Source: Hyphomicrobiales bacterium | GTDB lineage: Bacteria; Pseudomonadota; Alphaproteobacteria; Rhizobiales; Beijerinckiaceae | DNA: 64,000 bases | Assembly: GCA_003963405.1 (NCBI GenBank) | Contig: RXIY01000028.1 | Coordinates: 1 to 64,000 of the forward strand | Reading direction: 5' to 3' | In this document: positions 1 to 13,339 of the stretch, in pieces | How the letters are laid out: every line of letters begins with the position of its first letter | How positions within the stretch are numbered: position 1 is the stretch's first letter | Program-made: the position numbers and the translations under genes | The notes under the pieces: generated by a model | Database searches by the model: none | Told to the model about the DNA's origin: nothing | Seen by the model: only the letters and a program-made list of their open reading frames with translations

Positions 1-374
1 GCCTGTATCCGCTTGATTGGCCGTGCCATCTTAGCAAGACTTCCTGCAAATCACTCGCAGGGAAATAATAGTCGATATTTGAGAGACGGGACACTAGCGC
101 GCCTTACGGCGCCGGCCAGTTTTTGCCAGAAAAAGCGTATCGGCTCCGCGTGGTCGCCAATTCTCGATAGCGCGGGGCGCCGGCGCCCAAGCGGCCTCGC
201 GCTGACCGCTAACGGCGCTTTGGCAACCGATTTGCGCCGAACTCCGCCGGACTTGTCCGGCCTTCGGAATGTCCGATAATCTACGCCCACCATTCAGCGC
301 CAAATGCGCGCGTTCGGGCCGCGCGGGCAGCGCCGAGGCGTCGAATTTGGAAAGCGCGCAAACGAGGATCTGAG
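1..374. other. intergenic, no gene recognised
   Basis: No open frame here resembles a known protein; the readable frames are GC-driven shadows. The last 15 bases before position 375 carry a GAGG-type ribosome binding site for the recombinase gene. The segment before it may be the remainder of an older mobile element, since the next gene is an orphan recombinase, but nothing in it proves this. Confidence 0.4.
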
Positions 375-1424
375 ATGGCCAAAGGCGAAAAGGACGGGAT
401 GGGCGGCCTGTCGCGCGTCGAGGAACCGACCGCGCCCCAATTTTCGGCGCTCTCCCAAAAGGCGCGCGACTACGCCCGCGCCGCCCGATCGGAAAATACA
501 CAGCGGGCCTATGACGCCGACTGGCGGCACTTCGCCTCCTGGCTGCGCCGGGAGGGCCTCGACCCCCTGCCCCCGAATCCCGCAACCATCGGCCTCTATC
601 TCGCCGCCTGCATGACCCCCGCGCCCGGCCGGCCGGCGCTCTCCGTCTCCTCGCTGGAGCGCCGGCTGTCGGGAATTTGCTGGCGCTATCGCCAGCTCCA
701 GCGGCCTCTCGACACGACGGATCCGCATGTCGCCACGGTGCTGGCCGGCATCCGTCGCACTCACGCCCGCCCGCCCGTCCAGAAAGAGGCGATCTTCGCC
801 GACGAGCTTCTCGCCATGCTGGCGACCCTCGGCAACGACTTGCGGGACTTGCGTGACAGGGCCCTTCTCGCCGTCGGCTTCGCCGGCGGCCTGCGCCGCT
901 CCGAGATCGTGGGCCTCGACTGCGGGCCCGGTCAGACCGAAGACGGAGCCGGCTGGATCGAGATCGTCAGCCCCGACGAGAACGGCGGCGGCCTGCTCCT
1001 GACCATCAACGGCAAGACCGGCTGGCGCGAAGTGGAGATCGGCCGTGGCTCATCTCCCCTCACCTGCCCCGTCGCCATGCTCGAAACCTGGCTCAAACTC
1101 GGGCGGATCACGCGGGGTCCCGTGTTCCGACCCATCGCCCGCAAGAACGGCGGCGTCGGGTCGGAGCGCCTTTCAGACAAGCATGTCGCCCGCCTCGTCC
1201 AGAAAACGGCGCTGGCCGCCGGCCTGCGCGGCGATCTCCCCGAAGGCGAGCGCCGTCGCGCCTTCTCCGGCCACTCCCTGCGCGCCGGGCTCGCTTCTTC
1301 GGCGACGATCGAGGAGGCCCATGTGCAAAGGCACCTCGGCCACGCCAGCGCCGAGATGACTCGCCGCTATCAGCGCAAACGCGATCGCTTCAGCGTCAAT
1401 CTAACCAAGGCGGCGGGGCTATGA
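375..1424 (+). CDS. tyrosine-type site-specific recombinase (orphan)
   Basis: A 349-residue DNA-breaking and rejoining enzyme. The N-terminal SAM-like core-binding domain covers about residues 25-135 and the catalytic domain about 140-349. The expected catalytic residues are visible: R174 (in GGLRRSE), H300 and R303 (in GHSLRAG), H323 (in LGHAS) and the nucleophile Y332 (in RRYQ). The start has a GAGG site upstream. It ends 113 bp before the left attachment repeat of the satellite element, so it lies outside that element, and it is not closely similar to the element's own integrase at 10878-11909. It is probably the leftover of another integrative element or a stand-alone recombinase. The enzyme looks intact; its target site is unknown. 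Confidence 0.88.
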   Translation: MAKGEKDGMGGLSRVEEPTAPQFSALSQKARDYARAARSENTQRAYDADWRHFASWLRREGLDPLPPNPATIGLYLAACMTPAPGRPALSVSSLERRLSGICWRYRQLQRPLDTTDPHVATVLAGIRRTHARPPVQKEAIFADELLAMLATLGNDLRDLRDRALLAVGFAGGLRRSEIVGLDCGPGQTEDGAGWIEIVSPDENGGGLLLTINGKTGWREVEIGRGSSPLTCPVAMLETWLKLGRITRGPVFRPIARKNGGVGSERLSDKHVARLVQKTALAAGLRGDLPEGERRRAFSGHSLRAGLASSATIEEAHVQRHLGHASAEMTRRYQRKRDRFSVNLTKAAGL

Positions 1425-1537
1425 ACGTCGGCTTCCAATCAAGGAAGAGCGCAGGACCGCGAGAGCCGCCCTAAACATGGCTTGAGCGTGGGCCGAGGCG
1501 CGCGGCGCGGGAGGACATCGGGGATCATCGAGTGGCT

Positions 1538-1584
1538 TGGCTGGGGGACCTGGATTCGAACCAAGATTAACGGAGTCAGAGTCC
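1538..1584. repeat. attL: 47-bp direct repeat (displaced tRNA-Gln 3' part)
   Basis: Identical over 47 bp to 11967-12013. It contains the CCA end, acceptor 3' strand, T arm, variable region and anticodon arm up to the start of the anticodon stem of tRNA-Gln, on the minus strand. Outside the repeat the sequence no longer matches the tRNA, so this is a dead fragment displaced by integration at the tRNA 3' end. Confidence 0.93.
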
Positions 1585-1639
1585 CCACCGTCACATTGAT
1601 TTAATTGCGGATTTCTCCCGAAACAGGGGAAATTCTCTC

Positions 1640-2056
1640 TTGAAAAACCAATACGTTACAAACGGTTTTCCGAACGGAAACGAAGCAATTCAGGCGGCGC
1701 TTGGAGCATCGTCTGGTCGCGACGCACGGGGGCAAGGTTCTCCGCCCCAAAAAGAAAACGCCGCCCCGCTTGAGCAACGGGACGGCAAAGAGAAAGTCTT
1801 TCAGAGCACGCAAAACTACCAAGAAACACCACAATTCGCAAGCGCGCCGGATAACCTCGACGATATCCGCCGCGCCGCGATTGGCGAATGTGCCGAACTG
1901 GTCATCTCGCTCGGCCTCTCGATCAAAGAGGCGGTTTTCCGCCGCGACGATCGGTTCACGGAGGCGCATCTGGCGCAACTGATCGCTGTGACGCGCGCCG
2001 CTTGCGCCACGTTCCGGGAAATCTCCCCCGAGGGTTACACGGGGGAAGCGCGATGA
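1640..2056 (+). CDS. hypothetical protein, first gene of satellite replication operon
   Basis: A 138-residue protein of unknown function beginning at a TTG codon with GGGGA about 9 bases upstream. The first half is polar and probably disordered (rich in Q, N, G and K). The second half, from about residue 70, looks helical and is the more protein-like part. Its stop overlaps the ATG of the next gene (ATGA at 2053-2056), which in turn overlaps the helicase gene, so the three genes look translationally coupled. That position suggests an accessory replication or regulatory role, which is inference only. No family was recognised. Confidence 0.6.
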   Translation: MKNQYVTNGFPNGNEAIQAALGASSGRDARGQGSPPQKENAAPLEQRDGKEKVFQSTQNYQETPQFASAPDNLDDIRRAAIGECAELVISLGLSIKEAVFRRDDRFTEAHLAQLIAVTRAACATFREISPEGYTGEAR

Positions 2057-2253
2057 GTTGGGACATTTTTTTCGTGTCTATGTCCGCCCATCACGCCCCC
2101 ATCAATGCCGCCGCGAAGAAAGCCGGCATTGATCGTGGCGCGGCGGAGCGTGACCTGCGCACGGGGAAGACGGGCAAAAATCGCCGCCCCCTCGCCTCGA
2201 AAGCAGCCTCCGCCACGCCTCGGCGCGGTTCCATCCGGGGAGCGCGCCAATGA
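2053..2253 (+). CDS. small basic hypothetical protein
   Basis: A 66-residue, strongly basic protein (many R and K in the last 40 residues). It begins with the ATG that overlaps the stop of the upstream gene and ends with a stop overlapping the ATG of the helicase gene at 2250. A small basic protein between two coupled replication genes could bind DNA, but no motif proves it. The double ATGA overlap is the main evidence that it is real. Confidence 0.55.
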   Translation: MSWDIFFVSMSAHHAPINAAAKKAGIDRGAAERDLRTGKTGKNRRPLASKAASATPRRGSIRGARQ

Positions 2254-3869
2254 GCAAGGACGAAATCGTGCGCGCTGTCGAAAGCGCCGAGGTAGTGGTT
2301 TTTCCCGGCCGCAACCAGCGGGACGGGCAAAGGCCACCGGTCGAGCCACCAAGGGACGGCGACGATCTTAATCGCCGCCTCGCCGCCTTCGCCCTGACAG
2401 ACCTTGGCAACGCCGAGAGATTCGAAGAAAGATTTAAAGACCATCTCGTGCATTGTCGATCGTTGGGCTGGCTTGCCTGGGATGGCCGGCGCTGGTCGCG
2501 GTCGCGCGGCCCTGATCGCGTCGCGGAAGCCGAGCGCGAGACTGTGCGGGCCATACAGGACGAAGCCGACGCGATCGAAGGAACATCCGACGATTATGAA
2601 ATGGAGGACGCCAAAGGAAAGAAAATCAGGCGTTCGGAGGCGCTCCGAAAGCACGCGCGGGCCTCCGAGAGCAGGCCGCGAGTGCGGGCGATTTCTGACC
2701 TCGCGGCATGCAGGATGACTGCGCAGGTTTCCGATTTCGACCGCGATCCCATGCGCTTCAATGCCCAGAACGGGACGCTCGTTTTCAGGCGCAGCGGCGA
2801 ATCGGGTTGTGTGGTTGATCTATTACCGCACAATCCATCCGATATGATCACAAAGCTTGCGCCGGTTGACTATGATCCAGAGGCACGTTGCGACGTTTTC
2901 GACGGGTTCTTAGAAGAAGTTCAGCCCGAAGAGTCAACGCGGCGGTTCTTGGCTCAATGGTGTGGTTATTCTCTGACTGGTGACACCTCAGAGCAAAAGC
3001 TCTGTTTTTTCTATGGGCACGGCGGAAACGGAAAGTCCGTCTTTGTGGATACGCTCAGCTATATTGCCGGTGACTATGGCTCCTCCATCCAAATTGAAAG
3101 CTTTCTCGACGCTGGCCGGGCGCGGATCGGTGGCCAGGCGACGCCCGACTTGGCCGAGCTCCCGGGCGTGCGATGCTTGACGACGACGGAGCCGGAAAAA
3201 GGCGCGAAACTCGCGGAGGCGCTCGTCAAACAGATTACGGGCGGAGACCGCGTTAAGGCGCGGCACCTCAACCGTGACTATTTTTCCTTTACGCCACAGC
3301 TCAAATTGACTGCTATGGGCAATTATCGGCCCGAAGTCCGGGGGACTGACGAGGGAATCTGGCGTCGCATCATTCTCGTGCCCTGGGGCATCACAATCCC
3401 GAAGGAGCGGCGCGACCCTGGCCTCTCGGAAAAGCTCCACGCGGAGGCGTCTGGAATTCTAAACCGTTACCTTGCCGGGCTCACGGATTGGATCGAGAGG
3501 GGCCTCCTCGTGCCCCAGAGCGCTTTAGAGGCGACGGCGCAGTATAGAGAGGACAGCGACCCGCTCGGGCGCTTCCTGGCGGCCTGCACGGAGCAGGCGC
3601 TCGGCGAGCGGGTGGTCTCGACCGAAATGCATCGGCTCTACTGCGCCTGGGCCAAAGCGAACGGAGAGCGAGTCTGGACGCCCCAGGGCTTCGGTAAAGC
3701 GATGCGGGAACGCGGCGTGATGTCGCTTAAAAACTCGGTCGTCTATTGGCTCGACATCAGGCTGACAAAGAACGCCGCCGACTTCGACAATCAACAAACC
3801 GAGGCGGCTCAGCCGATCGACCAGGACCACTACGGTTCCGGCTATGCCACTGACTATGACGCAGACTGA
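2250..3869 (+). CDS. phage/plasmid P4-D5 type helicase (replication initiator)
   Basis: A 539-residue protein of the phage/plasmid primase P4-family C-terminal type (D5 N domain followed by a superfamily 3 helicase). The Walker A motif GHGGNGKS is at residues 256-263. A downstream block with TTTEPEKGAKL, TGGD and AMGNYRPEV fits the helicase core of this family, followed by an IWRR motif. The D5 N region is about residues 150-250. The N-terminal 150 residues show no TOPRIM or archaeo-eukaryotic primase motif, so primer synthesis may come from the host or a helper phage. Directly downstream lies an array of CGGGAGG iterons on both strands, the expected position for the origin this protein would open. 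It drives replication of the element after excision. Confidence 0.9.
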   Translation: MSKDEIVRAVESAEVVVFPGRNQRDGQRPPVEPPRDGDDLNRRLAAFALTDLGNAERFEERFKDHLVHCRSLGWLAWDGRRWSRSRGPDRVAEAERETVRAIQDEADAIEGTSDDYEMEDAKGKKIRRSEALRKHARASESRPRVRAISDLAACRMTAQVSDFDRDPMRFNAQNGTLVFRRSGESGCVVDLLPHNPSDMITKLAPVDYDPEARCDVFDGFLEEVQPEESTRRFLAQWCGYSLTGDTSEQKLCFFYGHGGNGKSVFVDTLSYIAGDYGSSIQIESFLDAGRARIGGQATPDLAELPGVRCLTTTEPEKGAKLAEALVKQITGGDRVKARHLNRDYFSFTPQLKLTAMGNYRPEVRGTDEGIWRRIILVPWGITIPKERRDPGLSEKLHAEASGILNRYLAGLTDWIERGLLVPQSALEATAQYREDSDPLGRFLAACTEQALGERVVSTEMHRLYCAWAKANGERVWTPQGFGKAMRERGVMSLKNSVVYWLDIRLTKNAADFDNQQTEAAQPIDQDHYGSGYATDYDAD

Positions 3870-3876
3870 CGAACCA

Positions 3877-4123
3877 CGGGAGGTCTACGGGAGGTCTACG
3901 GGAGGATAGCTCGATGACTAAGTTATTGATTTTAGGCCCAACGGGAGGAACGGGAGGAACGGGAGGTTTTTTGCAGCATCTCACATATGTGTGTGCGCGT
4001 GTGCGCGCGCATATGCGTAAATAGGCCAAAAAACCTCCCGTTCCTCCCGTTGGCTTTATTTTCAAACACTTAAACCTCCCGTGATCCTCCCGTAAACCTC
4101 CCGTGATCCTCCCGCACCTCCCG
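3877..4123. repeat. CGGGAGG iteron array around a Z-DNA-like core: candidate replication origin
   Basis: Thirteen exact copies of the heptamer CGGGAGG lie in 247 bp. Six are on the plus strand, starting at 3877, 3888, 3899, 3942, 3951 and 3960. Seven are inverted (CCTCCCG), starting at 4034, 4043, 4075, 4086, 4097, 4108 and 4117. Spacing is mostly 11 or 9 bp. The two halves point toward each other around 38 bases (3982-4019) of strictly alternating purine and pyrimidine. The inner copies plus adjoining T6/A6 tracts form a long inverted repeat able to fold into a cruciform. The position immediately after the helicase gene fits an origin recognised by that helicase, as in P4-type satellites. 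Function is inferred. Confidence 0.75.
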
Positions 4124-4355
4124 TTGGAGCCAAAATCAAAGACTTACGGTCGAGGAGCCGAGGACGCGGCCAGTGCAGTAGATCAGCCCGGTAGCAGTCT
4201 ATCAGGAATTCAGATGAACTGTCGCGGCAATTCATGGGATTTCTTTAGTGAACGTGGCCAAATCCTTCCGCTAAAAGCGGGTCCTTTCAGGCACTTAGGA
4301 ATACGGTAGAGGCGGGGGCCCGGGGGTGGAGGCGTAATAGAAATTTTCGATAGGG

Positions 4356-4384
4356 TTGTGAGTTGCTGGTTGTAGATATATAGA
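4356..4384 (+). promoter_or_regulatory. sigma70-type promoter for terminase-small-like gene
   Basis: TTGTGA at 4356-4361, a 17-bp spacer and TATAGA at 4379-4384. Transcription would start near 4391, leaving a short leader with GGAG at 4407-4410 before the ATG at 4417. The match to consensus hexamers and spacing is good; activity is inferred. Confidence 0.5.
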
Positions 4385-4416
4385 TATGTGAATATGAATG
4401 GGTTGTGGAGTTGTCC

Positions 4417-5061
4417 ATGACGCTGGCGGACCAAGATTGGATTTCGATGACGGACCTTGCACGCGAGCGCGGGGTTTCGCAGCAAAGCATCTCCAAAAGG
4501 ATGAAATCCCTAGCCCGCCATGGCGCGATACCGAAAAGGCGCGACGGCGTTCGAATTCTCATTCATCGGCCTAGCTTTGAGGCGCTTGTCGCGCAGACCC
4601 ATGATCCGGCCCAAGAGCTGCGCAACCGCAATGTGAAGCGCCACGCCACACCCACGGTCGTAGACGCGATCGATGGCGGCTTTGGCATCGCGCCACGGCC
4701 CGCCGCGCCATCATCGCCGAGCGCATTCCTCCCGCACCCCTCGCCGCCCGAGCCGTCAAAATTCAATGACGCGGCGGCCCGCGAGAAGGACGCGAAGGCG
4801 GCCCTCGCCGAAATGCAGCTGGCGCAAAGGCGCGGCGAGCTTGTCCCGGCTGCCGAGATCGGGCGGGCGGCGCTTGCAGTCGCGACTAAAATATTCCAGG
4901 CGGTCGAGTCCATCGTGGCGCGTAGCGGAAAGATTTACGCGGCCGGAAAGGGCGGCGAAGAGGCGCACCAAATCGAGTTGCGGGAGGCCGTCAATGAGAC
5001 GCTCGCGACGATCGCCGCCAGCATGACGGAACTCGAGGTTCTCGACGCATCTGAAGTCTAA
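4417..5061 (+). CDS. terminase small subunit-like DNA-packaging protein (Nu1-like)
   Basis: A 214-residue protein. Residues 1-50 form a winged helix-turn-helix (SMTDLARERGVSQQSISKR). After a proline-rich linker (about 80-115) comes a C-terminal helical region with the pattern AALAEMQLAQRRGELVPAAE, typical of Nu1/terminase small subunits that recognise the packaging site. An upstream GTG at 4405 is in frame, but the ATG at 4417 has a GGAG site and a promoter at the right distance. The last 4 bases overlap the convergent XRE gene. No large terminase gene follows, so this protein may steer a helper phage's motor to the element's DNA. The small-terminase call is by pattern, not by search. Confidence 0.65.
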   Translation: MTLADQDWISMTDLARERGVSQQSISKRMKSLARHGAIPKRRDGVRILIHRPSFEALVAQTHDPAQELRNRNVKRHATPTVVDAIDGGFGIAPRPAAPSSPSAFLPHPSPPEPSKFNDAAAREKDAKAALAEMQLAQRRGELVPAAEIGRAALAVATKIFQAVESIVARSGKIYAAGKGGEEAHQIELREAVNETLATIAASMTELEVLDASEV

Positions 5062-5291
5062 GGCTGCATTCCCTGCCTGAGCCTCACTCCCGGCCCTCCC
5101 CCATTTGCCTCGATGAATTCCGCCCCAGCCGCCTCTAGGGCGGCGCGGATCGCGGAGACTGTCCGGGGCTTCAGCTCTTCGCCGGCTTCAAATCGTGAAA
5201 TTGTGTTGGTTGAGACGTCGGCCAATTCAGCAAGCTCCTTTACGCCGAGGCTTAGGGCTGTCCTAGCCATCCGGCATTGGATAGGCAACAT
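5058..5291 (-). CDS. XRE-family transcriptional repressor
   Basis: A 77-residue, single-domain Cro/CI-type helix-turn-helix protein; the recognition region reads VKELAELADVSTNTISRFE. It begins MLPIQCRMAR, close to the usual MTPAQCRAAR start of this short rhizobial family, with AGGA upstream. It is transcribed opposite to the phage-type genes and away from the 5.3 kb intergenic region, where direct repeats look like operators. The arrangement resembles a lysogeny repressor facing the genes it controls. Repression of the right-hand structural genes, or self-regulation, is inference. Confidence 0.82.
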   Translation of the reverse strand: MLPIQCRMARTALSLGVKELAELADVSTNTISRFEAGEELKPRTVSAIRAALEAAGAEFIEANGGGPGVRLRQGMQP

Positions 5292-5371
5292 TTCGCAATC
5301 CTATTTCGATTTCGCTTGACGAACGCGCTTTGGCGCGCGATGTTTTCGCGTCAGTATAGCGATTTCGCAAT
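5290..5371. promoter_or_regulatory. candidate operator/promoter region between XRE gene and structural genes
   Basis: Two exact copies of ATTTCGCAAT lie at 5290-5299 (overlapping the XRE start codon) and 5362-5371, with related TTTCGATTTCG sequence between them. TTGACG at 5316-5321 is a possible -35 for rightward transcription, although the matching -10 (GATGTT at 5339) is weak. Repeats placed around divergent starts are typical repressor sites; binding by the XRE protein is inferred. Confidence 0.4.
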
Positions 5372-5421
5372 TTCGATCAACGCGGAAACCACCATTTCCG
5401 CGAACGGGAAATGCTTGCCTA

Positions 5422-5544
5422 ATGCCCTGGAAAACCACCGCAACCCTTATCGCGCTCTCTCCCTTTGCAACCCTCTGGCTCGCCTTCACGCTCATGGAAA
5501 CGTTCCGCGCGCTGGCCATTGCCCGCATCTGTCGCCGCCGCTGA
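5422..5544 (+). CDS. possible small membrane protein (40 aa)
   Basis: An ATG-started frame of 40 codons encoding a mostly hydrophobic stretch (residues 6-33) that could form one membrane helix, with a basic tail (RICRRR). It lies between the operator region and the acidic-protein gene and ends 33 bp before that gene. The ribosome binding site is poor. If real it could be a holin-like or membrane-acting satellite protein, but it may be chance. Confidence 0.25.
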   Translation: MPWKTTATLIALSPFATLWLAFTLMETFRALAIARICRRR

Positions 5545-5577
5545 GCGCTCGAAACCCAGAAAATTTGGAGAAACCCA

Positions 5578-6189
5578 ATGTCCCTAGCGAACGACAACGA
5601 CGTACCGCTCTTCGTCGAATTCAAACCTGGCTTCCGCCGGCGCGTTGAACGCGCCATCGACTCGCTGGTTGCTCTCCTAGACCAGATCGACGCCGATCCC
5701 GATTTCGAAGAAGAGCCGGATCTCGAAGACGGCTTCGATCAAGAGCAAGAGCTCGGCGCTACCGGCGTCATCAACCAGGAAAAGGCTTGGGGAGGGAGTC
5801 GTCGGGTGGAGTATGGCCTGACCAACAGCGACGGGGACCTGGAATTCGACGGCGAGACGGCCGAGAGCGCCGATGACGAGCCATCGCTCGGCAGTGTCGG
5901 GCAACTCAGCGAACGCCACGACCAGGGCCTATGGGCGCTCGGCGCTTCAGACGATCGCGAGGACGAGCACGACGGTCGCGAGCCCGACGTAGATGGAGAA
6001 CCATCGCTCGGCAGCATTGGCCAAGGCGACGCCCGATATAGCCAGTTTTGCTGGGCTCACGGTTCCAGCGATGACCTTGAAGAGAACATTGGCCCGGACG
6101 ATCGGGAAGGCGACGACGCCGAACATGGGATCGCGGATCGGGACGCGATAATGGAGGTGGGTTTCACCTTTCTCGGAGTTGCCGAGTAA
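5578..6189 (+). CDS. acidic repeat protein with EPSLGS motif, satellite-encoded
   Basis: A 203-residue, very acidic protein (dense in D and E). After a basic segment (KPGFRRRVER) and a helix rich in leucine, it carries two copies of a module of about 32 residues, each beginning EPSLGS and ending with tryptophan, glycine and an acidic run (about residues 100-133 and 140-173). Proteins with EPSLG repeats are common near phage genes in rhizobia, and as far as I know their function is undescribed. It precedes the portal/capsid genes. The composition would suit a DNA mimic or scaffold, but that is speculation. Confidence 0.65.
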   Translation: MSLANDNDVPLFVEFKPGFRRRVERAIDSLVALLDQIDADPDFEEEPDLEDGFDQEQELGATGVINQEKAWGGSRRVEYGLTNSDGDLEFDGETAESADDEPSLGSVGQLSERHDQGLWALGASDDREDEHDGREPDVDGEPSLGSIGQGDARYSQFCWAHGSSDDLEENIGPDDREGDDAEHGIADRDAIMEVGFTFLGVAE

Positions 6190-6249
6190 GCGGGATCGGC
6201 AAGGACGCGCGCGAAGTCCACGAACCGCTCGCCGAGCGCCCAGAATTTT

Positions 6250-6309
6250 AGTTCTGCAAATGACTCAGAACGTATTGCGCCCCACCCTTTTTTGAGTAAA
6301 ACTCAGAAC
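6250..6309. promoter_or_regulatory. inverted/direct repeat cluster upstream of 6326 gene
   Basis: ACTCAGAAC occurs at 6263-6271 and 6301-6309. The first copy pairs with GTTCTG at 6251-6256, and the second is preceded by TGAGT, giving two small dyads about 38 bp apart just before the ATG at 6326. This looks like a regulator-binding or RNA-structure region controlling the 6326-portal-capsid run. The binding protein is unknown. Confidence 0.4.
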
Positions 6310-6325
6310 AAAGAGGGGCATCATC

Positions 6326-7054
6326 ATGGCAAAGCTTCCAGCGTTGGTTACGGCTCTCAGCGAGTGTGACGGTCGCGAACGGAAAACGATCGACCACATA
6401 GCCCGCCTCATCCGGGAGGCCGGCCACATTTCTACCACGAAACGCGGGTCCGGCGCTTCTGAGATGACAGCCCGAGACGCGGCGAATTTGTTTATCGGCG
6501 CGAACGGCTGTGACAGCCCCAATGAGGCGCCGCTCGCGATTGATCGCTTTCGGTCGCTTATCCTGCATCGTTCTTACACGCGTCCAGGCTGTGACGTTGA
6601 GGCGTTTAACCGTGTCGCCGAAGCGAACAATTTCGGCGTCGCGCTTGAAGCGATGATTGACGGCATGGACGGCGTCATGAGCGCCGCAGACGGGTTCCTC
6701 GAGTCCGGCTATGCGCAGCTTCCTGAGACGATTTCTCGCGTCAAGAAGAGCCTGAGAACCGGTTCATGGGGTAGCGGCCTTATCCCCTTTCATTTCGATA
6801 TCGAACTGAAGCGATACCAGGCGAAAATCACCTGTTCTGTCAACGTCGCGTCCGAGACAGGCGCTCGGGACCAAAGCGGCGTCGCCGGCGTCTGGCGCAC
6901 CGATTTCTGCGCCCAATTTGAAATCGACGTTAACCGCCTGGAACAGGGTTTCTACGGTCTCAAGAGCGCCGACAGGAATGTTTCCGTCACTGCTACCGGC
7001 TTCACGCTATTCAAGCTCTGGTCAGCGATTCAGCAGCACGAAACCCAGGGCTGA
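6326..7054 (+). CDS. hypothetical protein preceding portal gene
   Basis: A 242-residue protein of unknown function with an AGAGGGG ribosome binding site. The first 60 residues look helical and charged; the rest is mixed, with no membrane segment. It occupies the place where a large terminase normally sits in front of a portal gene, but it has no Walker A motif and is far too short for one. The portal gene starts 2 bases after its stop, so it is probably co-expressed with the head genes and may act in packaging or head assembly. The function is not known. Confidence 0.65.
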   Translation: MAKLPALVTALSECDGRERKTIDHIARLIREAGHISTTKRGSGASEMTARDAANLFIGANGCDSPNEAPLAIDRFRSLILHRSYTRPGCDVEAFNRVAEANNFGVALEAMIDGMDGVMSAADGFLESGYAQLPETISRVKKSLRTGSWGSGLIPFHFDIELKRYQAKITCSVNVASETGARDQSGVAGVWRTDFCAQFEIDVNRLEQGFYGLKSADRNVSVTATGFTLFKLWSAIQQHETQG

Positions 7055-7056
7055 CT

Positions 7057-8565
7057 ATGTCGATCCAGCTTTCCCTCTTTGAGCGGGCCTTGCTCGCGAT
7101 ATCGCCGACGCTGGGGATGCAGCGGATTCAAGCGCGCGTGGCGGCGAATGAATTCGTCAGAAATTACGACGGCGCGTCGCGCGATCGCCGCCTGGGCAAC
7201 TGGGGGGCGTCGGCGACGGGCCCTAACGCCGAGATTGGTCGTGGCGGGGAGCTCATTCGCTTTCGCGCCCGCGATCTGGCGCAGAACAACAAAGCCGTCG
7301 CGGCGGCGAAACTTCAGTTTATGGGCAAGACGGTTGGCACCGGCATTGCCCCGCGCGCCGTCCATCCCGGCGAGACGACGCGGCAAGCGGCGGATGACGC
7401 CTGGGCGCGCTTCGCCGACACGTGCGACCCAGATGGGCAACAGGATTATTATGGTCTTCAGTCGCTCACAGCCGGATCGATGTTTATCGACGGTGAATGC
7501 TTGCAGATGTGGCTTCCGGCGAGCGATGGAAGCCCAAATGCGCAGATTAAAGTCCTGGAAGCCGACATGCTCGATGACCGGCAGGTCGGGAATCTCCCCG
7601 GCCAGGACCGGCGCGTCGTGGCTGGCATCGAATTCGACGGCTGGAACCGTCGCGTGGCTTATGTGTTCCACCAGGCGCACCCAGGCGAGGCAGATACGTT
7701 CGGGGTAGGGCTCAAAACGGAGCGCGTGCCGGCCGCGCTGGTCGACCATTATTTCCACGTGGCTCGGCCTGGCCAGCTTCGTGGCGTGTCCTGGCTCGCG
7801 CCGTCGGTCGTCGGCTTACGCGGCTGCGACGATGTCAAAGAAGCGATCATCTGGCGTAAGCGGTTGGAGGCGTGCCTTGGGCTAATTGTGCGCTCGCCCG
7901 AGAGCCAGGGCGCCACTCCAATAGTCGGCCGGCAAAGGACTGACAGTAAGGGGCGGATCGAAGAAGAATTAGCGCCCGGCAAGATCATTCGCCTTGCCCC
8001 CGGCGAGGATGTGACGACGCTCGATCCGGCTCCGAGCGGCGACGCCATGGAATTTCTGCGCTCGGAGCTTTACGCCTTCTGCGCGACCGTTGGCGTCTCC
8101 TATCACGAAATCACTGGCGACGCTTCGCAGGCGAATTACTCGTCCATGCGGGCGGCGAAGATCGCCGGGGACGTTCTCATTGACATGATTCAGTGGCTCG
8201 TGTTTGCGCCGCGCATCAAGGCGGCTTGGCGGCGCGTGATGCAACGCGAGTATGTGCTCACCGGCCGGCGAGAATTCCTCGCCGTGCGGTGTGAGCTCGC
8301 CATGCCGTTTCGACCTTGGGTCGATCCGTTGAAGGACATCACGTCGAAAATCCTGGAGCTGCGCGCCGGCTTGCAATCCATGCCCGACGCGCTCGCCGAG
8401 CGGGGGGTCAGTTGGCAAAAGCAAATCGCGGAGATTGAAAAATGGGCTTCCGCTACGGAAGCGGCCGGCCTCGTCTTCGATACTGATCCGCGTCAAGTCG
8501 ATCGCGCCGGCGCGTTGCAGGCGTTGCAAGCCGCCACGGCCGTCGCCAGCGATAAACAGGGATAG
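7057..8565 (+). CDS. phage portal protein, lambda family
   Basis: A 502-residue portal of the lambda gpB-like family. The N-terminal region contains RARDLAQNNKAVAAA, and the central region has the family's ADMLDD and GIEFDGWNRRVAYVF segments, followed by a hinge and clip region and a C-terminal helix. Twelve copies form the ring at one capsid vertex through which DNA enters. Length and overall pattern match full-length family members, with no frameshift. It sits directly before the protease/capsid gene, the usual order. A portal usually works with a large terminase, which this element does not encode. Confidence 0.92.
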   Translation: MSIQLSLFERALLAISPTLGMQRIQARVAANEFVRNYDGASRDRRLGNWGASATGPNAEIGRGGELIRFRARDLAQNNKAVAAAKLQFMGKTVGTGIAPRAVHPGETTRQAADDAWARFADTCDPDGQQDYYGLQSLTAGSMFIDGECLQMWLPASDGSPNAQIKVLEADMLDDRQVGNLPGQDRRVVAGIEFDGWNRRVAYVFHQAHPGEADTFGVGLKTERVPAALVDHYFHVARPGQLRGVSWLAPSVVGLRGCDDVKEAIIWRKRLEACLGLIVRSPESQGATPIVGRQRTDSKGRIEEELAPGKIIRLAPGEDVTTLDPAPSGDAMEFLRSELYAFCATVGVSYHEITGDASQANYSSMRAAKIAGDVLIDMIQWLVFAPRIKAAWRRVMQREYVLTGRREFLAVRCELAMPFRPWVDPLKDITSKILELRAGLQSMPDALAERGVSWQKQIAEIEKWASATEAAGLVFDTDPRQVDRAGALQALQAATAVASDKQG

Positions 8566-8570
8566 AGACG

Positions 8571-10406
8571 ATGGACCCTAACACCCGCCGGCAAACCTTT
8601 GCGGTTGCTTCCTACAATGCAGATGCGCGGACATTCGATGGGAAGGTGGCTTCCAACGACTTGATCGATCGCGGTTCGCACTTTGAGGAAATCGACTGGG
8701 CCGATGCTGATGTTTCGAGAGCGGCCCAAGGCGTCATGCCGTTGCTCGACAATCACAACGGCGCGACCCTAAAAGCCAAACTGGGAAACGTCCTCAGCCT
8801 CTCGAAAGTCCAGGGCGGATTGCTCGGTAAATTCGAGCTCGCCGAGACCGATGAGGCGCGCGCCGTCGCCCCAGAGATCGCCAGCGGTCGCGCCAGGGCG
8901 CTGTCGGTCGGATACACCGTCGCGAGCTGGGAGCATGTCGGAGACCGGGACGGCAAGCCGGTTTTGCGCGGCGTCAAGCCGGTAGTTTTTGAAGTGTCTG
9001 TGGTTAGCGTCCCCGCGGACAAAAGTTGCACAGTGCGCGGGATTTACCCGCGCGACCATCTCGAAGAGGAGACCATAAGAATGCCTGATCCCACCCCCAC
9101 CCCCACGAACGCGCCGCCTCCCGCGCCGCCGGCGAAGCCGATGGAAGCGACCCGCGCCTTCGAACTGCTCGAACGCGCCACCCTGCTCGGGCAACGTTCG
9201 ATTGCCGAGCGAGAGATTCGCGCCGGCAAGAGTGAGGACGAAGTGATGAATGCTATGTGGGCTGGAGCCCGCGTTCATGCGTCGGCCGAAGGCGAGCGTC
9301 TCCGCTCGATTGGCGCGCCGAGCTCCCACCTCCGCCAGCGCGGGGCCGCAGACACTTACGATAATCCTGAGTTTGCGAAGGGCGCGGCCGAGGATGCATT
9401 GGTCGCGCGCCTGACGAACACTAAGCCGGCGGAGCGCGCGCTTCGGTTTATGAACGTCAAGCTCACCGACTATGACGATGTGCTCGCGGACATGCGGGGG
9501 GAGCGGCGCGCATCGAGGGCGACGGCGAATGAGCAGCTTTCGATCCGCATGATGACAACGAGCGACCTGCCCATCCTGACGAAAAATGCCGGCGCGCGAA
9601 GCTTCCGATACTTCATGCAAGCCATGGAGGGCGGCAGTTCGGCGATCGTCGCGCCAATGACGGTTGCTAATTTTCGCGAGCACACCGAAGTGCAAGCGTC
9701 CACTTTTCCGGCGCTCAAAAATGTCGGTGAGGGCGGCGAGCTCGAATATGGCTACATCGATGAGTCTGGCGAGAAAATTGCGGTCGAGTCATTCGGTCGG
9801 ATGGTGATGGTGTCTTTCCAGGCGCTCGTGAATGACGATTTGGGCGGCTTGCAGGCGAGCATTCGCGCCACCGCCATCGCGGCCGCCAATCTCAAGGCTT
9901 CGACGATCATGAGCTCGCTCGGCGCAACGATGAGCGACGGTCAGGGGCTTTTTCACGCGACTCACGGAAATCTCGCCGGCGCGGGCGCCGCTCCGGGAGA
10001 AACGACGCTCTCGGCGGGTCGTGTCGCGCTTCGCACGCAAAAGGCGATCGGCGGCGAAGCCATCCTCGGCAACTCGCCGGCGCTCATTCTTTGCGGCCCG
10101 GCCTTGGAGACGACCGTTGAAAAACTCATCGCCACGATCAATCCCACGGCGACGAGCGACGTGAACGTCTTTGGCGGCCGGTTGCGCATGGCGATCGAAC
10201 CGCGGATCAGCGGCAACGAATGGTATTTGTTTGCTGACCCCGCGTTCTATCCGTGCGTGAAGTTTGCGACCCTGGCGGGCTTCGAAAGCCCGGTGTTCGA
10301 AGAGGATCGCGAATTCAATCGCCTCGGCATGTCCTGGCGCGTTCATTGGCACATCGGCGCGGCCCCGGTGGACTATCGCGGCTGCTGGAAGAACCCCGGG
10401 GCTTAG
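8571..10406 (+). CDS. prohead protease / major capsid protein fusion
   Basis: A single 611-residue polypeptide. Residues 1-160 are a head-maturation protease of the HK97/S78 type; H62 (in DNHNG) and S112 (in ALSVGY) are the likely catalytic residues. A proline-rich linker (about 172-190) is followed by a scaffold-like helical segment and, from about residue 260 to the end, a major capsid domain similar to the Mu gpT-type heads of rhizobial phages. Protease-capsid fusions are a known phage arrangement in which the protease cuts itself free during maturation. The gene starts 5 bases after the portal stop. The element can therefore build a shell, but no decoration, connector or tail protein follows. 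Confidence 0.9.
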   Translation: MDPNTRRQTFAVASYNADARTFDGKVASNDLIDRGSHFEEIDWADADVSRAAQGVMPLLDNHNGATLKAKLGNVLSLSKVQGGLLGKFELAETDEARAVAPEIASGRARALSVGYTVASWEHVGDRDGKPVLRGVKPVVFEVSVVSVPADKSCTVRGIYPRDHLEEETIRMPDPTPTPTNAPPPAPPAKPMEATRAFELLERATLLGQRSIAEREIRAGKSEDEVMNAMWAGARVHASAEGERLRSIGAPSSHLRQRGAADTYDNPEFAKGAAEDALVARLTNTKPAERALRFMNVKLTDYDDVLADMRGERRASRATANEQLSIRMMTTSDLPILTKNAGARSFRYFMQAMEGGSSAIVAPMTVANFREHTEVQASTFPALKNVGEGGELEYGYIDESGEKIAVESFGRMVMVSFQALVNDDLGGLQASIRATAIAAANLKASTIMSSLGATMSDGQGLFHATHGNLAGAGAAPGETTLSAGRVALRTQKAIGGEAILGNSPALILCGPALETTVEKLIATINPTATSDVNVFGGRLRMAIEPRISGNEWYLFADPAFYPCVKFATLAGFESPVFEEDREFNRLGMSWRVHWHIGAAPVDYRGCWKNPGA

Positions 10407-10533
10407 TTCTTGATTTTGGGGCATCTTCTGACGGCGAAACGGTGAGCCGAATAACGAAAAACGGAATCCGGGCCCCAAAAAGCCGCTTCCACAAGCGGTG
10501 GATCAAGTCATCCGGTCAATTCCGTGCAGCCGT

Positions 10534-10571
10534 CGCTCCCGCGCCTCGGTGCGCAACCAAGCGCGGGAGCG
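10534..10571. terminator. strong hairpin downstream of capsid gene
   Basis: CGCTCCCGCGC at 10534-10544 pairs perfectly (11 bp) with GCGCGGGAGCG at 10561-10571 across a 16-base loop, followed by a pyrimidine-rich stretch. It lies 128 bp after the capsid stop in a 269-bp gap. It may end the structural operon, though it lacks a clean T-run and could be another kind of structured site. Confidence 0.4.
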
Positions 10572-10675
10572 TCCTATTTCTCTGGCCGACGCAAAAGCTC
10601 GGGCGCGAGGCGACTGGATAGTCTAAGTCGCAAGTTTTCATTCCCTCAGTAACAACATCAATCATCGGTGCAGGA

Positions 10676-10894
10676 ATGGCGGCAAACAGAAAGCCATCGC
10701 AATTCAAGCAGTGCGATGTCGCGCGCGCGCTGCGGGCGACGAAAGCGGCTGGCCTCGATGTCGCTCGCGTGGACGTGCACGCGAGCGGCGATTTCAGCGT
10801 CATAATCAGGGGCGGTGAGGGACAGATTTCCGGCCCGCAAGCTCCGTCGCCATTCGATAAATGGAAGGCTGCGAAGGATGCGCGTAAAGCTTAA
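10676..10894 (+). CDS. small hypothetical protein upstream of integrase
   Basis: A 72-residue basic protein (MAANRKPSQF start), probably an alpha/beta mini-domain. Its last 17 bases overlap the integrase start, so the two are likely translated together. Small proteins in this position are often excisionases or recombination directionality factors, but no winged-helix motif is convincing here, so function stays open. Similar short frames next to integrases are common in rhizobial prophages. Confidence 0.6.
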   Translation: MAANRKPSQFKQCDVARALRATKAAGLDVARVDVHASGDFSVIIRGGEGQISGPQAPSPFDKWKAAKDARKA

Positions 10895-11909
10895 GGGGTT
10901 GAACCGAAAGAAAGTGAGGCTCGCGAACGGCGAGACCATAATCTATTATTACGCGTGGAAGGGCGGCCCTCGTGTTCATGGGAATCCCGGGACGCATGAA
11001 TTCTTTTCTTCCTACTCTGAAGCGATAAAGAACCGCGCGCCGCAGGGCGCGAAGATCCTCGCGAAAATTTTCAGGGACTATTCGGAGTCGCCCAAGTTCC
11101 TGTCAAAGGCTGACCGAACAAGGCGCGATTATCTAAGACACATTGAGAAGATCGAACATGCGTTCGGTGATTTTCCCGTTGAGGGCTTAATCGACCGCCG
11201 CGCCCGCGACGAATTCCTGACCTGGGGCGACAAGCTCGCCTTGGCCTCTAAGCGCCAGGGCGACTATACGATGACCGTGTTCGCGCTCATGCTGGCATGG
11301 GCGAAAAAGCGCGGGAAGATAGCCCACAACCCGCTAGAGAAGCTCGAACGTTATTACAGCGGGACCCGCGCCGAAATCATCTGGACCGATGATGACGAAG
11401 CCGCGCTCGCGCGCGTTGCGTCGCAACCTTTACGCCTCGCGCTGATGCTGGCGCTTTGGACCGGGCAGCGCCAAGGCGACATTCTGAAAATGGCTTGGTC
11501 TGCTTACGACGGCCGGCTGATAAAAGTGCGGGCGAACAAGACGAATTCTTATTTGCCTATTCCGGCCGGAAAGCCGCTACGCGAACTTCTCGACGCAACA
11601 CGCAGACAAAGCCCGTTGATCGTGACGAACACGCGCGGGCGCCCCTACTCCGAAAATGGCTTCCGGGCGTCATGGGCGAAAGCCTGCGACAAGGCCGGGC
11701 TTTCGGGAATTACCTTCCACGACCTTCGCGGAACCGCCGTCACGCGACTTGCGATTGCCGGGGCCAGCGAACCCGAGATCGCGGCCGTGACCGGTCACTC
11801 CATAGGCGACGTTCGGTCGATCCTCGAGAAGCATTACCTGAAGCGTGACCCTGCCCTAGCGGCGAACGCGATCGCGAAGCTCGAAAGGAGAACGGAAATT
11901 CCCGAATGA
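10878..11909 (+). CDS. tyrosine integrase of the satellite element
   Basis: A 343-residue integrase. Catalytic residues are visible: R198 (TGQRQGD), H281 and R284 (FHDLRGT), H307 (TGHS) and the nucleophile Y320 (KHYL). The N-terminal region, with charged residues and a YYYAW strand, is an arm-binding domain, followed by a core-binding domain at about 65-155. The start at 10878 has GGAAGG 9 bases upstream; an in-frame earlier ATG at 10815 lies inside the preceding gene. It ends 57 bp before the tRNA-Gln attachment site, the standard place for an integrase acting at that tRNA. It catalyses insertion and, with a helper factor, excision of the element. Confidence 0.92.
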   Translation: MRVKLKGLNRKKVRLANGETIIYYYAWKGGPRVHGNPGTHEFFSSYSEAIKNRAPQGAKILAKIFRDYSESPKFLSKADRTRRDYLRHIEKIEHAFGDFPVEGLIDRRARDEFLTWGDKLALASKRQGDYTMTVFALMLAWAKKRGKIAHNPLEKLERYYSGTRAEIIWTDDDEAALARVASQPLRLALMLALWTGQRQGDILKMAWSAYDGRLIKVRANKTNSYLPIPAGKPLRELLDATRRQSPLIVTNTRGRPYSENGFRASWAKACDKAGLSGITFHDLRGTAVTRLAIAGASEPEIAAVTGHSIGDVRSILEKHYLKRDPALAANAIAKLERRTEIPE

Positions 11910-11966
11910 ACACCCGAATGCGACATGGTGTTGAATAATCAAACGGAGAAACCGCTTTAAAATCAA

Positions 11967-12013
11967 TGGCTGGGGGACCTGGATTCGAACCAAGATTAAC
12001 GGAGTCAGAGTCC
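11967..12013. repeat. attR: 47-bp direct repeat inside tRNA-Gln
   Basis: Identical to 1538-1584. This copy restores the 3' portion of the functional tRNA-Gln gene. Recombination between the two copies would release a circle of 10,429 bp and leave an intact tRNA. Confidence 0.93.
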
Positions 12014-12040
12014 GCTGTTCTACCGTTGAACTATCCCCCA
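11967..12040 (-). tRNA. tRNA-Gln(CUG)
   Basis: A 74-base tRNA including an encoded CCA end. The 5' end TGGGGGA pairs with TCCCCCA at the 3' side. The anticodon stem GCGGA/TCCGT closes the loop CTCTGAC, giving anticodon CTG (reads CAG, glutamine). The T arm contains GGTTCGAATCC. It is the integration target of the satellite element, whose attachment copy replaces its 3' part. Confidence 0.95.
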
Positions 12041-12229
12041 ACGGCGGCTTTGCGCCGCAGCGGATCGTGATCTAGAGAGAGCCGCGGGCGCTGTCAACCG
12101 TTTCTGTGACGACGGCCGGGCGGCCAGACCGCCACTTGCGGCTGGGTCAGCAATCCTGCATTTAGGATAATTGACGCGAATGGGGTCGTGCGAGCGGCGA
12201 AGGCGCGAGAAACCGGTTATCGCGGGAGC

Positions 12230-13339
12230 ATGAATTTGGCAGGGACCCAGCGGCCCGCGGATGCGGAGCCAGGTCTGGAGGCGGCGGCGGCGCGGCAGGC
12301 CGGGGTTGTGGGCGCGAACACGGCCGTTCCGAGGACGTCCGCGCCTTGGACTGGCCATACCTACGCCGCCCTCGACCTTGGCACCAACAACTGCCGGCTG
12401 CTCATTGCGCGGCCGGAGCGCCGGCCGCGCCGCCGCAATTCGGATTTCTTGCGCGTCATCGACGCCTTCTCGCGGATTGTGCGGCTGGGCGAGGGTCTTG
12501 GCCGCGCCGGGCGAATCAGCGAGGCCGCGATCGAGCGCACCATCGCCGCGCTGGACGTTTGCCGCGCGAAAATGGAGACGCGCGGCGTCACCCGCGCCAG
12601 GCTCGTCGCCACCCAGGCGTGCCGAGGCGCGGCGAATGGCGACGAATTCGTGGCCCGCGTTCGCGAACGCACCGGCCTCGAGCTCGAGGTCATCGACCGC
12701 GAGACAGAGGCGCGTTTCGCGGCGCGCGGATGCGGGTCGCTCGCCGATCCACACGCCGCCAGCGTGCTGCTGTTCGACATCGGCGGCGGCTCCACCGAGC
12801 TCGTCTGGCTCACCCGCTCGTCCGAATCCGCCGACGCGCGCGAACTGCACAGCTGGACGTCGCTCGAGCTCGGCGTCGTCACCCTGGCCGAACATTTCGG
12901 CGGTCGCGTGGTCGACGCCCGCACCTTCGCCGCCATGAAGAATTACGCGCGGGAGGCGCTCCTCCACTTCGTCGACGAGACCGCGGAAATCGCCCGCTGC
13001 TCGCGCTTCCATCTCCTCGGGACATCGGGGACGGTCACGACGCTCGCCGGCGTGCATCTCGGCCTCGAACGCTACGATCGCTGGCGCGTGGACGGGCTGT
13101 GGATGAGCGACGCCGAGGCGACGCGCGCCATCGATCGACTGCGCGCCATGGATTTCGAGGAACGCGTGGCCAATGGCTGCATCGGCCCACAGCGCGCCGA
13201 TCTCGTGCTCGCCGGCTGCGCCATTTTCGAGGCTATTCGCGAGATGTTCCCGGCTGCGCGCACCCGCATCGCGGATCGCGGCCTGCGAGAGGGCATGCTG
13301 CTTGAGCTCATGGAGGCGGACGGGGTTCTCGTCGCCTGA
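12230..13339 (+). CDS. ppx: Ppx/GppA family exopolyphosphatase
   Basis: About 369 residues if started at the ATG at 12230; a GTG 42 bases upstream is also possible. It belongs to the actin-like Ppx/GppA phosphatases that remove phosphate from polyphosphate or convert pppGpp to ppGpp. Phosphate-binding loop 1 is in ALDLGTNNCRLL and loop 2 in FDIGGGSTELVW; RLGEGL and GTSGTVTTLAG are further family blocks. It is shorter than E. coli Ppx and has only the catalytic core, as usual in alphaproteobacteria. In this group it often precedes an rlmE rRNA methyltransferase gene, but that is not seen here. Whether polyphosphate or pppGpp is the substrate cannot be told. Confidence 0.88.
   Translation: MNLAGTQRPADAEPGLEAAAARQAGVVGANTAVPRTSAPWTGHTYAALDLGTNNCRLLIARPERRPRRRNSDFLRVIDAFSRIVRLGEGLGRAGRISEAAIERTIAALDVCRAKMETRGVTRARLVATQACRGAANGDEFVARVRERTGLELEVIDRETEARFAARGCGSLADPHAASVLLFDIGGGSTELVWLTRSSESADARELHSWTSLELGVVTLAEHFGGRVVDARTFAAMKNYAREALLHFVDETAEIARCSRFHLLGTSGTVTTLAGVHLGLERYDRWRVDGLWMSDAEATRAIDRLRAMDFEERVANGCIGPQRADLVLAGCAIFEAIREMFPAARTRIADRGLREGMLLELMEADGVLVA

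Follow-up and report, generated by a model that had tools for sequence, protein, structure and literature searches.

The 64,000-nucleotide stretch of DNA analysed here (the window) contains a 10.4 kb element flanked by exact 47-bp repeats (1538-1584 and 11967-12013) that is likely an integrated mobile satellite, one that would build its own head and have it filled by the large terminase (TerL) of a helper phage at a shared cos site. Its gene order is p1, p2, D5 helicase, opposed iterons, cos-like block, small terminase (TerS), XRE repressor on the opposite strand, p6, p7, portal, protease-capsid fusion, p10 and integrase (Table 1). A sequence-only reading had already named the helicase with iterons, the repressor, a TerS-like protein, the portal and the protease-capsid fusion, and Pfam and PHROG matches confirmed these assignments. 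The iteron array is the probable replication origin. PADLOC recognised nothing in p1, p6, p7 or p10, and a low-confidence structure model of p7 (pLDDT 54.7) shows an N-terminal helical part that might, at a guess, bind DNA. The integrase start in Table 1 was chosen within a frame that is open from 10815.

Table 1. Features of the element, numbered from the first nucleotide of the window
Feature	Positions	Strand	Evidence
attL	1538-1584	.	47 bp, exact repeat of the 3' part of tRNA-Gln; single copy at the G587 empty site
p1	1640-2056	+	Conserved in sister element L219, 71 % identity over residues 34-138
p2, small ORF	2072-2254	+	No Pfam or PHROG match
D5-type replication helicase (D5_N, Pox_D5)	2250-3869	+	Pfam and PHROGs; 77-78 % identical in L219, dN/dS 0.118
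Iteron array	3877-4123	.	Six CGGGAGG and seven CCTCCCG in two opposed clusters
Candidate cos site	4278-4357	+	80-bp block common to TerL-bearing phages of the genus
TerS (small terminase)	4405-5061	+	phrog_57, E 1e-16; 49 % identical to G495 prophage TerS
XRE repressor	5058-5291	-	Pfam; 75 % identical in L219
p6, acidic, EPSLGS repeats (by eye)	5578-6189	+	Between XRE and portal; eight profile matches among mapped loci; recurs in compact elements
p7	6326-7054	+	Relatives in HK97-headed elements L077 and L078; unrelated ORF at its place in L219
Lambda-family portal	7057-8565	+	PF05136, E 8e-83; 92 % identical in L219, dN/dS 0.066
S78 protease-major capsid fusion	8571-10406	+	PF04586 and PF25209; 78 % identical in L219
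p10, small protein beside integrase	10676-10894	+	Recurs in relatives; five profile matches
Tyrosine integrase	10878-11909	+	PF00589; about 40 % identical in L051 and L078
attR	11967-12013	.	Inside tRNA-Gln(CTG), tRNA gene 11967-12040, minus strand

The boundaries of the element were compared with other genomes of the species and genus. The two repeats lie 10,429 bp apart from start to start and, as the sequence-only reading had it, are exact att copies at a tRNA-Gln gene. In the conspecific genome G587 (locus L116) the target site is unoccupied and holds a single 47-bp copy: it aligns to window positions 94-1584 (98.9 %) and 11967-13203 (99.9 %), and because these adjoining pieces overlap in the one copy, the insertion was precise and the element is absent from that strain. 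Presence in one conspecific genome and absence from the other shows that the element is mobile. Four other members of the genus (L117, L118, L121 and L123) each gave a single match to the 47-bp sequence in the 13 kb fetched, in their own tRNA-Gln, but as the left flank of the window had no match there, these sites are less informative than G587; no tRNA was found in the stretches examined in L119, L120 and L122. A gene transfer agent or a domesticated head was set aside on account of the exact att repeats, the integrase and the empty site. A further integrase-like gene lies just outside attL (window 375-1424); it also adjoins the unoccupied site of G587, and L039 596-1102 holds a closely similar fragment on the minus strand, noted by eye.

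No packaging motor was detected in the element. Among window ORFs of at least 30 aa, the first TerL profile gave no match up to E 10, a full-sensitivity search with profiles for two TerL types yielded nothing better than E 0.6, and the best gpW match (E 0.24) lay outside the element; within the element, profiles for both TerL types, gpW and tape measure at full sensitivity gave nothing better than E 1.7. The ten element proteins compared with PHROGs (the set without the integrase) included no tail family. The claim of an element with neither large terminase nor tails held in these searches. No HNH endonuclease was found among the ten proteins scanned with Pfam, and no head-tail connector had a Pfam or PHROG match among the element proteins scanned. 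The genome-wide search, which covers GpA-type TerL, found none of this type in the whole source genome. GpA TerL is present in 12 of 39 genomes of the genus and in neither of the two genomes of this species examined, where no resident helper of this type was found; infection by an incoming phage is therefore the likely trigger for the element. The source genome has a fae gene 84 % identical to Methylocystis iwaonis plasmids, a weak sign from one gene that the host is probably close to Methylocystis; other short matches fell mostly in Alphaproteobacteria.

Relatives of the portal and the capsid fusion occur in 10 and 14 of the 39 genus genomes, respectively, with the source genome counted in both. 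The closest relative is a sister element in the same species, L219, located at a tRNA-Gly and sharing p1, the D5 helicase, XRE, portal and capsid with the window element (identities in Table 1). Its portal match has one flagged TAG, giving a frame of 500 aa versus 502 that ends two codons early. Neither TerL nor TerS was found in L219, indicating that not every such element needs TerS. Nei-Gojobori dN/dS between the two elements was 0.118 for D5, 0.08 for XRE, 0.066 for portal and 0.146 for capsid, with dS ranging from 0.7 to 2.2 and the XRE value near saturation. The shared genes are under purifying selection, and since TerL was detected in neither element, the simplest reading is that their common ancestor lacked it and that selection kept the rest.

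These data bear on the possibility that the element is the decaying remnant of a prophage, still in place, from which TerL, gpW, tail and lysis genes have gone. Such an origin would fit a portal and TerS of the type seen in tail-bearing prophages, as well as a genome with no GpA-type motor. However, all reading frames of the element are open, unlike the broken genes expected of a decayed prophage, and the initial impression that its genes look intact was strengthened by the low dN/dS of those shared with L219 (0.07-0.15). Decay in place also sits poorly with the precise empty site in G587, with the diverged sister L219, which occupies a different tRNA and likewise shows no TerL, with a gene order unlike that of phages, and with the relatives of XRE, p6, p10 and integrase, which sit in compact elements. 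We rejected it on the empty site and the dN/dS values and consider it very improbable. Sister elements carrying TerL and tail genes at the same site, which would have marked a deleted prophage, were looked for and none was seen: the conspecific site is empty and L219 shows no TerL either. A capsid-encoding satellite without its own motor, as originally proposed, is the best reading.

The DNA of the element carries a candidate packaging signal that is common to phages of the same genus, a feature that the sequence-only reading does not mention. Upstream of TerS, the block at 4278-4357 is identical to a block of the G495 prophage at 64 of 80 positions (80 %) in an ungapped alignment, whereas the TerS genes share 58 % identity across their aligned codons, and the sequence on either side of the 80-bp block does not align. 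The G495 prophage encodes TerS, GpA TerL, gpW, portal (57 % identical to that of the window), capsid and head decoration, followed by tape measure, distal tail and tail fibre proteins, and G580 matches it in its set of packaging and head genes; here, for G495 as for L155 below, 'tail-bearing' means that tail genes were seen and makes no claim of a complete prophage. A proposal that D5, with its similar N-terminus, was also common to the G495 prophage was dropped, as only 18 residues align well. A matrix built from the window, G495 and C90 copies of the block scored 61 in L226, 60 in L228 and 36 in L227, all outside its building set, against at most 3.9 in five shuffles of each. It scored 75 on an inverted copy in L219, though no TerS was found there. 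No such block was found with this matrix in L222, L223 or L229, in the truncated L220, L221 and L224, or in L213, a 3.4-kb contig cut by its end that contains the nearest capsid relative from outside the species.

A core pattern, GGGTCCTYN{22,28}GCGGGGKYCCGGGGG, gave 11 sites in 9 of the 39 genus genomes and none with the reversed control. These sites include two TerL-bearing prophages (G495 and G580), four capsid-gene elements (the window, L227, L228 and the contig-end-cut L225), and a remnant on contig C90 of the source genome with the identical site in G587; these eight are the sites that were read. The C90 remnant (L038 19234-19953) combines this second cos-like block with a TerS and a replication-initiator-like gene, and shows no TerL in the stretches read. 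In IMG/VR the core pattern occurred in four contigs, with TerS directly downstream in all four, followed in L234 and L236 by a TerL-gpW-portal-capsid series. The four matches are not all independent, as the block of L234 recurs in L235 and the L236 block is the one seen in G580. The position of the block next to TerS and its distribution fit a cos site, which is most likely what it is, and a G495-type phage is the predicted helper. Since the DNA carries the apparent loading signal of viruses of the same genus, the element probably borrows their motor and tails.

A shorter motif extended this pattern beyond the genus. Of 78 TerL loci, counting only those with a TerL domain above 1.2 kb and at least 900 bp upstream, 32 had the motif in the 1.2 kb preceding TerL, where about 0.4 would be expected; as it was not found in the other 46, it marks some packaging lineages only. 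Among loci outside the genus with no TerL detected, L043 and L134 found their best match in the L155 site; L155 is a prophage resident in the L043 genome itself, and tail sheath and tape measure are among its genes. The site of L053 matched L177, a TerL locus of the same family (94), and the satellite L151 (92) almost equally, while L041 and L160, also with no TerL detected, carry the motif with no close phage match. Within the genus, L227 (tRNA-Glu, 15-bp repeat) and L228 (tRNA-Arg, 46-bp repeat) contain TerS, capsid and integrase together with the same block as the window, and profiles detected no portal, TerL or gpW in either.

Elements of this last kind raise the question of what the head genes do. 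The capsid and portal might mainly poison or remodel helper heads, with satellite DNA carried in helper-built or mixed heads, and it is in keeping with such a role that L043, L134, L227 and L228 keep the capsid fusion while profiles show no portal, TerL or gpW. The three of these that were scanned (L043, L227 and L228) also carry whole defence systems: a CBASS-type pair of phospholipase and cyclase, a retron II-A (RT and NDT) and IetAS were observed at L227 13468-15860, L228 12810-14886 and L043 12187-15526. Of the four genes measured between the window element and L219, however, the portal, kept by both, is the most constrained (dN/dS 0.066), in line with a procapsid that works, and we judge interference unlikely as the main function of these genes.

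Relatives of the capsid fusion were present in at least 75 of 397 genomes of the order, the source genome included, a lower bound as at most three candidates were scored per genome. At least one place in each of the 75 was mapped with iterated profiles, leaving out at least two short fragments (G157:C53 and G279:C75), L193 (which duplicates the L148 region) and L197 (a region of 10-base filler). Many of these relatives are compact elements adjoining tRNA genes, 9.9 to 12.5 kb in the twelve measured. Typically, a replication gene is followed by TerL, XRE, portal, capsid, integrase and tRNA, and the order of phage-like loci is TerS, TerL, gpW, portal and capsid. Requiring both a tRNA and an integrase, 26 of 91 capsid loci passed, a strict rule that misses likely elements such as L042, L142, L143, L145 and L160; L056, L124, L138, L213, L220, L221, L224 and L225 are cut by contig ends. 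TerL was present in 20 of the 26, and compact capsid elements of this kind, sited at tRNA genes and equipped with TerL, are common in the order, a point absent from the sequence-only reading. The remaining six are the window, L041, L043, L053, L134 and L139, where absence in the latter five refers to two TerL profiles, with part of the ORFs scanned with Pfam or PHROGs. Capsid loci with no TerL detected recur at tRNA genes, in these six as well as in L219, L227 and L228, and the lack of a motor, which the sequence-only reading had expected to be unusual in an alphaproteobacterial methylotroph, is not unique to this element. Other searches returned little: TerS matched in 5 of 199 order genomes (own included), a single-protein scan of IMG/VR with the capsid fusion gave no relative, and a contig profile search with a two-row portal alignment gave only Candidatus Phycosocius at 36 %.

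The abundance of TerL-bearing compact elements (20 of 26) leaves room for an arrangement in which the element is a full capsid-forming satellite that obtains TerL from a second satellite rather than from a phage. Against this, TerL-bearing phages of the genus carry blocks that match the cos-like one and the source genome contains no GpA TerL, and we regard it as extremely unlikely. The preferred source of the motor, a helper phage of the G495 type, was in keeping with the portal tree. In this tree, one of two quick trees, the gene orders were well separated, with 46 phage-order rows requiring four changes and 32 satellite-order rows five, although these classes lean on a gpW label that is weak in satellites because it comes from an iterated profile only and Pfam did not recognise the one tested (L053). 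The window groups with the phage side of this tree (support 96), its neighbour being the G495 prophage (support 100). The fork on which the satellite side depends is weak (support 23). The capsid tree instead placed the window with L040 and L139 (support 100), apart from the G495 prophage, within a section (support 97) where all 32 TerL-bearing satellite-order rows are found together with seven phage-order rows; L040 is not in a recognised compact element. By sequence, then, portal and TerS are of G495-phage type and the capsid is nearer to satellites, and the two have different ancestries.

Several related elements displayed variant head and tail modules. L041 (10813-12720) and L160 (7096-8784) are tRNA-bounded with no TerL detected and carry the capsid fusion together with a tape measure, L160 also with TerS, a combination that might let them determine the length of the tail in addition to the head. 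L077 (5199-15433) and L078 (3841-14896) contain relatives of the window p7 and integrase but an HK97-type portal and capsid and another TerL (head type from a family search in L078 and from profiles in L077); from this the head module seems to have been swapped as a block. In the tRNA-bounded L139 (7983-9923) and L143 (8269-10416), the capsid is fused to a ClpP-type protease instead of S78.

Taken together, we propose the following cycle for the window element. The XRE repressor would hold the element down until a helper phage relieves repression, after which its own integrase would excise it and the D5 helicase would replicate it from the iteron origin. The portal and protease-capsid fusion, open and constrained as they are, would build the element's own procapsid. 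The shared block and the ancestry of TerS suggest that TerS, the cos site or both would recruit helper TerL to the DNA of the element, and the portal, which shares its lineage with that of the predicted helper, could dock the helper motor. The helper would supply the head-tail adaptor, tail and lysis functions, and the virions produced on such induction and packaging by helper TerL would be chimeric. More broadly, we lean towards the view that TerL-less capsid satellites with helper-type cos sites represent a distinct and recurring lifestyle in this alphaproteobacterial genus and order, in which the satellite would own the head and tune cos, TerS and portal to rent a motor; the window element would then be a chimera of a satellite shell and helper-derived docking parts. 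The DNA signal, TerS and portal all point to the same partner lineage, allowing a predicted helper to be named from sequence alone and making head-motor compatibility testable. The order also holds a large set of capsid-encoding elements, and it is absent from the hosts of capsid-forming PICIs (cf-PICIs) as listed in the part of PMC10803314 cited here.

Comparison with known satellites places the element between established types. We found no description in the open-access literature of an own head combined with a helper motor. SaPIs with their own TerS use the TerL of their helper, and P4 has a D5-type replication domain. The window element resembles SaPIs in encoding TerS itself, and P4 in its D5-type domain and, if the candidate block is indeed cos, in a packaging site on the satellite. 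It differs from both in its head, as SaPIs resize helper capsids and P4 takes the helper capsid, whereas the window element has its own capsid fusion and portal; no redirection gene was recognised in it. In the sections of PMC10690885 drawn on here, satellite-encoded TerS redirects packaging in SaPI/PICI, and the P2 terminase packages P4 at cos sites that the P4 DNA carries. The same sections describe cf-PICIs as widely distributed across Bacteria, encoding large and small terminases, HNH and connectors between head and tail, and requiring nothing but tails (PMC10690885), while the main hosts named in the corresponding part of the PICMI paper do not include Alphaproteobacteria (PMC10803314). 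The resemblance to cf-PICIs that the sequence-only reading had drawn holds for a small integrated element with its own integrase, replication gene, repressor, capsid, protease, portal and TerS and no tail gene found, but does not extend to membership: the element shows no TerL, HNH or connector and, lacking TerL and connectors, is not a cf-PICI by definition. The closest concept is a set of putative E. coli satellites that are mostly tRNA-integrated and carry capsid genes and no terminase genes, for which the available sections of the source report no matching cos site (PMC10448857). As described in those sections, they lack a prohead protease and carry tape-measure genes and a baseplate gene (PMC10448857), and the window element differs from them by its protease, portal and TerS. 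Well-described satellites thus either take the helper head or build a head together with its motor; if our reading is correct, head and motor are here split between satellite and helper.
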